Assembly: GCA_028692955.1 (NCBI GenBank)
Contig: JAQUWH010000011.1
Span: forward strand, 1 to 39,339
Source: Clostridia bacterium
GTDB lineage: Bacteria > Bacillota > Clostridia > TANB77 > CAG-465
Reading direction: 5' to 3'
DNA: 39,339 nucleotides
Position numbers and translations under genes: made by a program. Positions 11,533 to 25,853 of this stretch are shown piece by piece. A model generated the notes under the pieces. The model was not told the DNA's origin. It did no database searches and saw only the letters and a list, made by a program, of their open reading frames with translations. Numbering within the stretch: the stretch's first letter is position 1; each line of letters starts with the position of its first letter.

Positions 11533-12354
11533 ATGGAAAAGATAGCGATTTTATCCGATGTGCATGGGAATATAACAGCTTTGAATGCCGTATTAGAGGA
11601 TATAGAAAAAAGAGAAATTAAAAAAATATTTTGTTTGGGAGATAGTACAGCAAAGTTACCAAATTCTGATTTAGTGATTGACTTATTAAAAGAAAAATGT
11701 GAGGTTGTATTAAAAGGAAATTGTGAGGTTGTATTAAAAGGAAATTGTGATGAAAATATAGCTCATCCTAATATTGCAAAAGGAAGATTTTGGACTAGAG
11801 ATAAAATAGGAGAAGAACGAGCTAACTATCTATATCATTTGCCTGTTATGCATGAATTTTACTTGAGTGGTTATTTGATAAGATTATTCCATGCTTCACC
11901 ATTTAGTTTATATCATATATTTAATCCCATTTTTAAGAATAGGTGTAATAGATATGAAAATAGGCAAATTGACGACTACAATTGCTTATTTGAAAATACA
12001 AAATTTATTGGTAGAAACCAAAATGATGAAATTCCTGATGTAGTTGGTTATGGTCATCTCCATACTCCTAATCTTTTTAGATATGGAGATAAAACTATTT
12101 TTAATCCTGGCAGTGTGGGAGCATCATCTGAAATGAAAAATAATAGTAATCAAACGAATACATCAAAGTTTTCTACAGTAGCATCATATATGGTATTAGA
12201 AGGTGAATACGGTGCAAAAGAATTATCAGCTTTATCGTTTCAACTGGTTCGACTTTCTTATGATATACAAAAAGAAATTGAAAATATAGAAAAATCCGAT
12301 ATGCCTGGTAAGGAAGATTCCATTAGAATGTTAAAAACAGCTTCGCCTTATTAA
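11533..12354 (+). CDS. YfcE-type metallophosphoesterase with duplicated active-site segment
   Basis: Calcineurin-like phosphodiesterase of 273 residues. Metal motifs: D9-x-H11 (SDVHGN), GD near residue 36, GNCD, a His in LFHASP, and GHLHTP near residue 175. The striking feature is a perfect 24-bp tandem duplication (11701-11748) that repeats EVVLKGNC at residues 57-64 and 65-72, so the GNC part of the GNCD metal motif occurs twice. The paralogue at 19173 has a single copy. GGTGA precedes the ATG at 11533. The pyrophosphorylase gene starts 20 nt after this stop, implying cotranscription. Substrate unknown; cyclic nucleotides or phosphomonoesters are typical of the family. The duplication may lengthen a loop and alter activity. 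Confidence 0.88.
   Translation: MEKIAILSDVHGNITALNAVLEDIEKREIKKIFCLGDSTAKLPNSDLVIDLLKEKCEVVLKGNCEVVLKGNCDENIAHPNIAKGRFWTRDKIGEERANYLYHLPVMHEFYLSGYLIRLFHASPFSLYHIFNPIFKNRCNRYENRQIDDYNCLFENTKFIGRNQNDEIPDVVGYGHLHTPNLFRYGDKTIFNPGSVGASSEMKNNSNQTNTSKFSTVASYMVLEGEYGAKELSALSFQLVRLSYDIQKEIENIEKSDMPGKEDSIRMLKTASPY
11701..11748 (+). repeat. Perfect 24-bp tandem duplication inside the phosphoesterase gene
   Basis: Positions 11701-11724 and 11725-11748 are identical. The repeat is a multiple of three and inserts eight residues next to the metal-binding GNCD motif. Confidence 0.97.
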
Positions 12355-19117: not shown

Positions 19118-19172
19118 CAACAATAGGAAACATTGTAGTAGTAAATTTAACTAAATGACAAGGAGAATCAAT

Positions 19173-20012
19173 ATGAAATTTGCAATTATTTCTGACATTC
19201 ATTCCAATCTTGAGGCATTAAAAGCGACATTAAATGATATCAGCAAAAGAGACGTGGACAAGATTATCTGTATTGGTGATATTATAGCAAAGGGAACTCA
19301 TGTTAAAGAATGTTTAGATTTAGTGAGACAACATTGTGATATTGTTATACAAGGAAATTGTGATAGGCACTTTTCAGCAACTCATGATTTAACGGATCCA
19401 TTTTTTTCCGAACAAGAAAAAACGAGAATACAATATAACCAGTCACGACTAACAATGGAAGATAGAGAATACCTATCTAATTTACCCTTTTGTTTTGAAT
19501 TCTATATGAGTGGCAGCTATGTAAGGTTATTTCATGCTACCCCACAAAGGGATAATATACCACTGATTAATCTAGATAGTATACAAGATAAATATAACAT
19601 GTTTTTGCCTACTGAAAAAACAGTAACACAGAAAATAGCTGATGTGGTAATCTATGGACATATCCATCATCCTTATATGGATAGACTATATAATAAAACT
19701 TTAATTAATGTGGGGAGTGTAGGGAATTCTTTCGATGTTATTAGAAATGATATGAAAGATAGTGATATATTGGAAACGACAAGAAGTAATTACTTAATCA
19801 TTGAAGGCAAGTATGGAAGTACTGAGTACCATGATGATATTACTTTCCAATTTATTAGAGTGCCTTATGACATTGACAAGGAATTGAAAGATGAAAATTT
19901 GAATATTGAAAAGGAAAATCATCGTTGTGAACTTATTCAAGGAAAATATAGAGATATGAGCAAGATTAATGCTTATTATACAAAACTTGGCATAGATATT
20001 AATAAAATATAA
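19173..20012 (+). CDS. YfcE-type metallophosphoesterase (paralogue of 11533)
   Basis: 279 residues of the calcineurin-like phosphoesterase family. Metal motifs: D8-x-H10 (SDIHSN), GD near 35 (CIGDIIAKG), GNCD in VIQGNCDRH, an LFHATP His, and GHIHHP near residue 165. The start at ATG 19173 was chosen because AGGAG (19161-19165) is 7 nt upstream; the in-frame ATG at 19155 lacks one. It matches the protein at 11533 along its length, including the C-terminal YxIIEGxYG and PYDI blocks, but has only one copy of the segment duplicated there. It is monocistronic. Substrate unknown; the long C-terminal extension is shared only with its paralogue here. Confidence 0.88.
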   Translation: MKFAIISDIHSNLEALKATLNDISKRDVDKIICIGDIIAKGTHVKECLDLVRQHCDIVIQGNCDRHFSATHDLTDPFFSEQEKTRIQYNQSRLTMEDREYLSNLPFCFEFYMSGSYVRLFHATPQRDNIPLINLDSIQDKYNMFLPTEKTVTQKIADVVIYGHIHHPYMDRLYNKTLINVGSVGNSFDVIRNDMKDSDILETTRSNYLIIEGKYGSTEYHDDITFQFIRVPYDIDKELKDENLNIEKENHRCELIQGKYRDMSKINAYYTKLGIDINKI

Positions 20013-20760: not shown

Positions 20761-21915
20761 ATGAAAATAGAAGATAAGAAATTTGATTTTAAATTTTTGA
20801 ACTTTATGCTATATTTTGGATTTGCAGTTGCTATTTACTTTTTGCTAAAAAATATAGGTATTATGGATAAAATAGTTCAAGCAATAGGAGCGCTGGTACC
20901 AGTTTTTCTTGGTATTGTACTTTGCTGGATTTCGAGTCCACTTACCAATCGATTAAGAAAAATGGGATTTGGTAAGAATTTATCTGCCATACTTTCACTT
21001 GTGATTATATTTGGATTAATTATAGTAGTATTTTCAATCGTAGTACCCTTGTTTGTATCGGAATTTAGTAGTTTAGTAAAAGATTTTCCTAATATCTACG
21101 ATAATATAGTAGACAAAATAAATCCTTTCATGAATGAAAAATTGAACATTGAAAGTAATATAAAACACTTTAATGAAATTATTTCTAAAGATATGATTTT
21201 AGATAATTTAGATAATATACTCACATATTCAATATCAACATTACAAAGTGTGTTTTCATTCTTTGTAACAATTGGTACAACAATTGTGGTGTCTTTCTTT
21301 ATGGTAAAAGATATGGATAAATTTAAAGAAAGATTAATGATGTTCTTTTCTAGAAATGGAAAAGGTGGTAAGACATACAAGATGCTAACGCAAATAGATG
21401 GCGCTGTTATGTCTTATGTAAAAGGTACTATTTTAGATAGTATTATTGTTGGTATCCTAACAACAATTGCTTGTATGATACTTGGACTTGATTATGCGGT
21501 TGTGTTTGGTATTTTAATTACAATATTAAATTTAATACCATATATTGGGGCATTACTTTCAGAACTAATTGTTGCATTATATGCTTTAACAGTAGGTGGA
21601 CCAGTATTTGCTTTAATTACTTTTGCTTGTCTATTACTCGTACAATTAATCGATGCTAACATTTTACAACCTAATATTATAGGAAAATCTGTTAATCTAC
21701 ATCCAGTTGTGGTAATTGGAGGATTAATCGTATTTAATTTACTATTTGGTATTGTTGGTATGATTATTGCTATGCCAGTACTTGCAATTGGAAAAATTAT
21801 CATTGAATACAAATTTAGTGTACAATTTGATGAGATAGAAACAAAAGCTGATGTGGCAAAAAGCAAGAAAGAAAACAGAATTAAAAATAAAGAGGAAAAA
21901 GAAATTAAAAAATAA
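20761..21915 (+). CDS. AI-2E/PerM-family transporter
   Basis: 384-residue integral membrane protein of the AI-2E exporter superfamily (YdiK/PerM/YtvI-like). It has two N-terminal helices (about residues 15-60), a further helix pair near 75-100, and a soluble middle segment. A C-terminal helical cluster holds the family block ILNLIPYIGALLSE near 255-270 and the ILQPNIIGKSVNLHPVVV motif near 300-320. The cytoplasmic tail is highly charged (Lys/Glu). GAGGAG precedes the ATG at 20761, and the promoter is perfect. Members export autoinducer-2 or act as Na+/H+ antiporters; the substrate cannot be told here. It appears to be a single-gene unit. Confidence 0.9.
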   Translation: MKIEDKKFDFKFLNFMLYFGFAVAIYFLLKNIGIMDKIVQAIGALVPVFLGIVLCWISSPLTNRLRKMGFGKNLSAILSLVIIFGLIIVVFSIVVPLFVSEFSSLVKDFPNIYDNIVDKINPFMNEKLNIESNIKHFNEIISKDMILDNLDNILTYSISTLQSVFSFFVTIGTTIVVSFFMVKDMDKFKERLMMFFSRNGKGGKTYKMLTQIDGAVMSYVKGTILDSIIVGILTTIACMILGLDYAVVFGILITILNLIPYIGALLSELIVALYALTVGGPVFALITFACLLLVQLIDANILQPNIIGKSVNLHPVVVIGGLIVFNLLFGIVGMIIAMPVLAIGKIIIEYKFSVQFDEIETKADVAKSKKENRIKNKEEKEIKK

Positions 21916-22057
21916 AGGTATTAGCTTAATATCCTTGGCTATAAAATATAAAACCAACTGATTAAATTTAGAACGAAAACAGATAATCATGTGACTTGCA
22001 ATTTAATCATTTATTAGAAATATTACAACTAAAAACAAAAGAGGGAGGAGCATATAA

Positions 22058-23666: not shown

Positions 23667-25853
23667 ATGAAAATAGAAGGAAAAGTAGCAACGATAATCT
23701 TTAAGAACTCTACTAATTCGTGGACAGTCATGCTATTAAAAAGAGATAAGGGATACATCACTGCTGTAGGGGAAACACAAGATTTAGAAGTAGGAGATGA
23801 ACTGGAATTAGAGGGAGAAGAAACGACACATAAGGTATATGGAGAACAATTTCAATTTACTACTTACAAAAAACTATTACCAAAAACAGATGCGGCTTTA
23901 ATACAATATATTGCAGAGAATATAAAAGGAGTGGGTAAGAAGACTGCTGCTTTAATTGTTGATTTATTTGGTGAAGAAACGGTGAATACCATTCGTTATA
24001 CCCCTAGTAAGTTAAACGATATTAAAGGGCTAAATGAAACAAAAATAGATGATTTAAATCGCTTTTTTAATGAAGAATGGGAAAAATGGAATGTCATTGA
24101 ATATTTGAGTAGTTTTAATATATCAGTTGTTACGGCTAATAAAATATATCAAACATTAGGTAGTGATACTGTCAAGATTGTAAAAGAAAATCCATATAGT
24201 TTAATTGATTTTGTAAAAAAACTTGATTTTAAAACCGTAGACGAAATTGGTAAAAGTTTAGGTGTTAATTTAGATAGTGATCAAAGGGTGGATACTGGAA
24301 TTGTCTATGCTATTAATAAAGTAACTGAATTTGGGCATACTTGTGTAGAAGAAGAAAATTTAATAAAATTTGCTTCTGATATATTAGAAGTGGGGACCAA
24401 AGAGATAAAAAATGGAATCACACGCCTCATCCTAAATAGTAAGCTATATATGCAAACGATTGATGAGAAAAATTATATCTTTAAAAGAAGTTTCTATCTT
24501 GCAGAAGAAAATATTGCAAGTAACATTCTACTTCGTGCCAAAGATAAACCATTGGGAGTGGATTATACAAAACAAATTGAAAATGTTAGTAAAAGAAATG
24601 CAATAGAATTATCAAAAGAACAAAAAGAAGCTATTTCAAACTCGTTAAATAACAAATTAACTATCATTACTGGTGGACCTGGAACTGGTAAAACTACGAT
24701 TATTAAATGTATCATTGATATATTAGAAGAAATGAAAAAAGAGTATGTTCTTTGTGCACCAACTGGTAGAGCTGCAAAAAGGATTAAGGAAACTACTGGT
24801 AAAGAGGCAAAAACTTTACATAGATTGCTTGAAATTACAAAGGTAGATGACAATGATGTAGATATGTTCTATGAACTTCCTGTTACACCGATTGACACGG
24901 ATGTAGTAATTGTAGATGAAGCTTCTATGATTGATTGCATGTTAATGAATAATCTATTTAAAGCTTTGAACTCTTCTACACAGGTTATTATGGTAGGGGA
25001 TGTAAACCAATTACCTTCGGTAGGTGCTGGTAATGTGTTAAAAGATATTATTCATTCAAATGTCATTAATACTGTGTATTTAAAACATATTTATAGACAA
25101 AGTGCAATGAGTGATATTATTGTGAATGCTCATAGAGTCAATGAAGGAGAGTATCCGGAATTTAAAACAAAAGATACAGATTTATTCTATATCAAAACAG
25201 ATAGTATAGAGTCAACACTTGCTGAAATATCATCCTTGATTTCTTATAGAATTGAAAGCTTTGCTACGCTTAACGTATTAAAAGATTTACAAGTACTAAC
25301 ACCTATGAAAAAGACACAATTAGGTACGATTGAATTGAATACATTAATACAAGAAGTGTTAAATCCAAAAGCAACGACTAAAAAAGAGAAAGAATTTAAT
25401 GGGAAAATATATCGTGAAGGAGATAAAGTCATGCAGATAATCAATAATTACGATAAAAAGTTTGCGATTAATGGTGATTTTTTTGATGGAATCTATAATG
25501 GGGATATAGGATATATCAAATCAATTGATAATGTAAATCAAAAATTAATAGTGTTATTTGATGAAGAAAAAGAAGTAGTCTATGAATTTGATGAACTTGA
25601 TCAATTAGAGCATGCCTTTGCCGTAACGATTCATAAGTCACAAGGTAGTGAATTTGATTACGTGATACTTCCTTTATACACTGGTTATCAAAAGCTATTT
25701 ACTAGAAATTTGTTATACACTGCTATGACAAGAGCAAAAAAAATGCTAGTAATTGTTGGTAGTACTAACATTATCAATTATATGGTAGATAATATTGAAT
25801 CAAAAAATAGGATAACAGGACTGACGGCAAAAATAGTGGCTAAAAAAGGATAA
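23667..25853 (+). CDS. recD2: ATP-dependent DNA helicase RecD2
   Basis: Superfamily 1B 5'-3' helicase of 728 residues, used in DNA repair in bacteria without a RecBCD partner. The long N-terminal region carries helix-hairpin-helix-type sequence (IKGVGKKTAALIVDLF near residue 90) that separates RecD2 from RecD1. Walker A GGPGTGKTT is near residue 335, VDEAS near 415, GDVNQLPSVGAG follows, and the C-terminal motif VTIHKSQGSEFD is near 650. AGGGAG lies 7 nt before the ATG at 23667. No recB or recC homologue is adjacent. The gene ends at a bidirectional hairpin. All helicase motifs appear intact. Confidence 0.95.
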   Translation: MKIEGKVATIIFKNSTNSWTVMLLKRDKGYITAVGETQDLEVGDELELEGEETTHKVYGEQFQFTTYKKLLPKTDAALIQYIAENIKGVGKKTAALIVDLFGEETVNTIRYTPSKLNDIKGLNETKIDDLNRFFNEEWEKWNVIEYLSSFNISVVTANKIYQTLGSDTVKIVKENPYSLIDFVKKLDFKTVDEIGKSLGVNLDSDQRVDTGIVYAINKVTEFGHTCVEEENLIKFASDILEVGTKEIKNGITRLILNSKLYMQTIDEKNYIFKRSFYLAEENIASNILLRAKDKPLGVDYTKQIENVSKRNAIELSKEQKEAISNSLNNKLTIITGGPGTGKTTIIKCIIDILEEMKKEYVLCAPTGRAAKRIKETTGKEAKTLHRLLEITKVDDNDVDMFYELPVTPIDTDVVIVDEASMIDCMLMNNLFKALNSSTQVIMVGDVNQLPSVGAGNVLKDIIHSNVINTVYLKHIYRQSAMSDIIVNAHRVNEGEYPEFKTKDTDLFYIKTDSIESTLAEISSLISYRIESFATLNVLKDLQVLTPMKKTQLGTIELNTLIQEVLNPKATTKKEKEFNGKIYREGDKVMQIINNYDKKFAINGDFFDGIYNGDIGYIKSIDNVNQKLIVLFDEEKEVVYEFDELDQLEHAFAVTIHKSQGSEFDYVILPLYTGYQKLFTRNLLYTAMTRAKKMLVIVGSTNIINYMVDNIESKNRITGLTAKIVAKKG

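Follow-up and report, generated by a model that had tools for sequence, protein, structure and literature searches.

Analysis of a 39,339-bp stretch of DNA from a Clostridia bacterium (hereafter the window) uncovered a calcineurin-like metallophosphoesterase gene (11533–12354, forward strand) that carries a perfect 24-bp tandem duplication beside its GNCD motif. We consider this, with a probability of roughly 85%, to be a lineage-private, in-frame slippage duplication in an ordinary gene of the family, tolerated by the enzyme and not acting as a switch.

Results

The unit, GAGGTTGTATTAAAAGGAAATTGT, lies at 11701–11724 and again at 11725–11748 on the forward strand, head to tail and identical at 24/24 bases. 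Both copies encode EVVLKGNC (residues 57–64 and 65–72, respectively), and the second runs into Asp73 of the GNCD motif. The perfect array extends over 11698–11750 (53 bp, 2.21 copies), and TRF delimits an array of 2.8 copies at 11684–11750 with a score of 120, against 71 for the runner-up array in the window. The predicted duplication is confirmed by this identity and by 100 shuffles, which contained no match to the unit even with up to three mismatches allowed, and the accompanying claim that the frame survives is borne out by an intact ORF of 273 aa.

The source genome is a 1.25-Mb draft of 25 contigs (97.67% complete), the window being part of contig 14. Across 240,916 of its bases (the window plus a 201,577-base sample), the array is the sole perfect tandem repeat with a unit longer than 12 bases; two other perfect tandem repeats have units of 10 and 12. 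A search of viral contigs with the 24-bp unit plus two bases gave no matches. One further array in the window, an imperfect 24/25-bp repeat at 21869–21917 that forms the lysine/glutamate-rich 3′ end of an AI-2E family transporter gene, was considered as a second comparable case and rejected on account of its imperfect copies in such a gene end. The window also encodes a RecD2-type helicase (23667–25853), and a scan of the whole window with Rfam at gathering thresholds found no RNA family.

The host protein belongs to PF12850 (Metallophos_2; E = 1.5e-16, 61.3 bits against a cut-off of 27) and to PF00149 (E = 8.5e-10, 39.8 bits against 21.5), and falls outside the NCBIfam family YfcE (TIGR00040), for which it scores 36.9 bits, below the cut-off of 56.25. 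It contains the full family motif set D-x-H, GD, GN[H/C][D/E], H, and GHxH, as listed in the excerpted text of PMC4320098, in the form of DVH (residues 9–11), GD (36–37), GNCD (70–73), H120, and GHLH (174–177). According to the same excerpt, YfcE is a Mn-dependent phosphodiesterase, and its subclass has GNCD as a variant of motif IV. The top solved relative is 3qfm (Streptococcus Spr1479/SapH), both by profile (E = 4.1e-21) and by fold (Z 22.0, rmsd 3.0, 216 aligned residues, 26% identity). Spr1479/SapH is an asymmetric Ap4A hydrolase and phosphodiesterase, and the window protein, which resembles it in sequence and fold, might likewise hydrolyze Ap4A; a literature search on SapH / Spr1479 matched no paper. 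In common with the YfcE/SapH type, the window protein has the PF12850 domain, 3qfm as its closest fold, and the GNCD variant of motif IV, but it is longer (273 aa versus about 183) and carries the eight-residue duplication. Within the GNCD motif, we take the Asn to be the metal ligand. The Asp, which the original prediction had included in a metal motif, is probably not a ligand, as the superfamily set consists of two Asp, one Asn, and four His (excerpted text of PMC4320098).

The eight extra residues are absent from all 32 aligned homologues and, among the matches listed, from the 28 nearest orthologues in the order; the two sets overlap, and some of their loci look like the same species. The alignment of 32 homologues left out loci whose match starts past query residue 5 (e.g., L017), and that of 28 orthologues comprises the newly fetched loci L070–L097 among the matches listed. 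At the DNA level, a degenerate pattern for GNC(D/E), four codons, and GNC(D/E) occurs in 1/287 genomes of the order, namely the source genome itself. With comparison genomes taken at one per species, protein searches found family matches in 18 of the 28 genus genomes (E 0.001) and matches in 85/287 order genomes (E 1e-45), and a scan of a public genome collection returned four relatives. Fixed presence in diverged homologues, which the original prediction had itself named as contrary evidence, was looked for and is absent from all those examined; an old, conserved two-copy form was rejected because every relative examined is without it.

In a tree from which three short or distant rows were omitted, the window gene groups with its nearest relative, the sister orthologue of genome G011 (71% protein identity; support 91/85), within a clade of single-copy orthologues. 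Together, the single-copy state of the relatives and this tree position indicate that the insert is derived and, within the data at hand, private to the window lineage. A diverged paralogue in the window (19155–20012, forward strand; 38% identity) has a single copy of the segment, as had been predicted. Gene conversion from this paralogue was rejected, since its segment differs and the source genome holds no extra copy of the 24-bp unit with two or fewer mismatches.

Eight genus genomes encode two genes of the phosphoesterase family head to tail (loci L034, L036, L037, L038, L039, L040, L011, and L041 in G002, G004, G024, G010, G016, G006, G001, and G014, respectively). In 8/8 of these pairs motif IV reads GNCE in the first gene and GNCD in the second; first and second genes form separate clades, so a conserved E/D division of labor between the paired genes is possible.

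The duplication was originally described as recent, and it is indeed younger than the split from G011, being absent from relatives and identical between copies, but its age is only loosely bounded. Each 24-base unit offers just 5.0 synonymous sites, so that 24/24 identity sets a loose limit; applying the rule of three to all sites caps the divergence at about 0.125 changes per site (95% bound). Recent therefore denotes a time after the G011 split (dS 1.41), not necessarily a matter of generations.

The array is preceded by an older imperfect copy that encodes LLKEKCE (11682–11702, forward strand), is 17/21 identical to 11706–11726 at the same 24-bp offset, and likely seeded the slippage. The five bases TGTGA occur three times on the forward strand (11698–11702, 11722–11726, and 11746–11750) and mark the ends of the perfect array. 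Among 33,816 ORF pairs at offsets of 12–60, the 11682/11706 pair ranks first, both as is and with copy 2 masked. This quasi-repeat is inherited: in 53 single-copy homologues the same 21-base pair averages 12.6/21 agreement, compared with a background of 6.8/21 (sd 2.3) when 15,109 codon-aligned positions in these genes are scored at the same offset. It follows an eight-codon period of the family, L-K-x-x-C-[DE] and then L-K-G-N-C-D, which amounts to a mild imperfect 24-bp direct repeat.

A quasi-repeat of 17/21 with threefold TGTGA, set against single-copy relatives (0/32 and 0/28), is the expected signature of slipped mispairing or microhomology-mediated duplication. In the proposed course of events, the LKxxCE/LKGNCD protein sequence would itself supply the imperfect direct repeat family-wide, and in the window lineage that repeat would have drifted to 17/21, with TGTGA shared across the junction. 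The nascent strand would then have mispaired once, a single replication-slippage (microhomology) event yielding the in-frame 24-bp duplication. Template switching of this general sort is described for tandem repeats in E. coli (excerpted text of PMC8378479), which serves as a precedent. The sister gene of G011 agrees at 14/21 at the matching place, and its better quasi-repeats lie elsewhere and are not duplicated, which counts against a simple slippage story.

The placement of the insert in the protein is ambiguous. EVVLKGNC directly before the Asp, as originally described, is correct as a sequence, but the placement is not unique, because CEVVLKGN before the strand (residues 56–63) gives the identical sequence and is equally valid. 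MAFFT, in the 28-orthologue alignment, puts the insert before the strand, and other alignments shift the gap by one to three residues. In one register, copy 1 gives the strand and a GNCE motif with the remainder after it; in the other, copy 2 gives the strand and GNCD, and CEVVLKGN bulges before them. AlphaFold2 places a helix at residues 45–56, a strand from copy 2 at 64–68, and the motif at 70–73 of the window protein, with a low-confidence loop at 58–62 (pLDDT <50), and in the single-copy control L051 a helix at 45–55, a strand at 58–60, and the motif at 62–65. These models were built from 6 and 5 sequences, respectively (mean pLDDT 72.9 and 75.1); because the gap stood before the strand in the input alignment, the modeled register may be biased.

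As modeled, one whole strand and GNCD motif would be retained, supplied by copy 2, and the spare eight residues would most simply bulge between helix 45–56 and the next strand. Since this bulge would lie outside the strand and motif, the two-copy enzyme would stay folded and is probably active. The original location of the duplication in an active-site loop is weak, as the insert may equally precede the strand, where the model puts it.

Discussion

A gene in early decay, in which the insert harmed the fold and the sequence is now drifting, is an unlikely alternative that nevertheless deserves some weight. The insert lies close to a catalytic motif, and the family is without a match in 10 of the 28 genus genomes at E 0.001, which indicates that the gene is dispensable. 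At positions where at least 90% of 29 orthologues have the same residue, the window protein is off-consensus at five (residues 161, 186, 198, 242, and 252) and its sister at one, which hints at slightly weaker constraint; the tree branch of the window gene is also the longer, at 0.27 versus 0.18 for the sister. The frame, however, is full-length with no stop, the DxH, GD, GNCD, H, and GHxH motifs are all kept, and dN/dS to the sister is low (dN 0.20, dS 1.41, the latter near saturation). None of the Tajima tests with eight outgroups is significant (p 0.058 to 0.75), and their direction varies. On this sequence evidence we take the gene to be functioning, though its constraint may be mildly relaxed. 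An assembly or library artefact is improbable, even though 25 draft contigs make up this metagenome-assembled genome: the duplication preserves the reading frame, and no second perfect array lies on the contig. Exact matches at the 24-bp offset reach no more than about 9 bp beyond the duplication itself, and a k-mer graph of usual size would not form a loop over so short a stretch. The 53-bp array is also shorter than common short reads.

The proposed slippage duplication has a close likeness in blaKPC, where 42 beta-lactamase variants have tandemly duplicated, in-frame segments of 3 to 84 bp, which the authors put down to slippage or microhomology (excerpted text of PMC12593533). Those duplications too are short, in-frame, perfect, and at or near functional loops of the enzyme, but the KPC variants are drug-selected with a proven change in activity, whereas the window case has no known selection or effect. 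By analogy with this precedent, an adaptive insertion that reshaped the enzyme under selection might be imagined, yet it is very improbable, as nothing points to selection and the modeled loop is disordered and precedes the strand, toward the helix. Still more improbable is the switch of the original prediction, in which slippage would toggle the gene between one-copy and two-copy enzymes. Tandem repeats are prone to deletion via template switching, as excerpted text of PMC8378479 describes for 101-bp repeats in E. coli; the frame would survive both ways, and each register yields a plausible motif, GNCE being native in paralogues of the genus. Low-rate reversion of the 24-bp repeat is on these grounds likely, as for any tandem duplication, but such possible reversion is no evidence of function, and a literature search found no figure for how fast a 24-bp repeat in two copies reverts. 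Only two copies are present, and no one- or three-copy variant of this gene was seen in comparison genomes taken at one per species. In excerpts of a review of hypermutable repeats, which deals with short units and not 24-mers (PMC4235727), the rate is tied to repeat number, and a table puts low repeat numbers in the proto-mutable and mutable classes. On/off switching needs non-triplet units there, and repeats in coding sequence whose unit is a multiple of three are stated not to switch expression. The window array resembles contingency (phase-variable) loci in being a tandem repeat within a coding gene and differs from them in that its 24-bp in-frame unit is present just twice, which is weak evidence for a phase switch; the proposed switch is unsupported. 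The native GNCE of the genus (first gene of 8/8 tandem pairs) means that the alternative register is not absurd. Two interchangeable strand-plus-motif segments, with the chain folding either way (GNCE or GNCD) into a two-state active site that reversion might also set, are nonetheless barely to be expected.

The duplication adds one more case to a well-known class of mutation, a class that is common and can matter under selection, to judge from the excerpted text of PMC12593533. A functional role for both folding registers, or for reversion in copy number, would be needed to give it greater weight. As it stands, it offers a clean small example in which a protein's own near-repeat, LKxxCE/LKGNCD, would seed an in-frame duplication beside a catalytic motif, and in which the fold may absorb eight extra residues.
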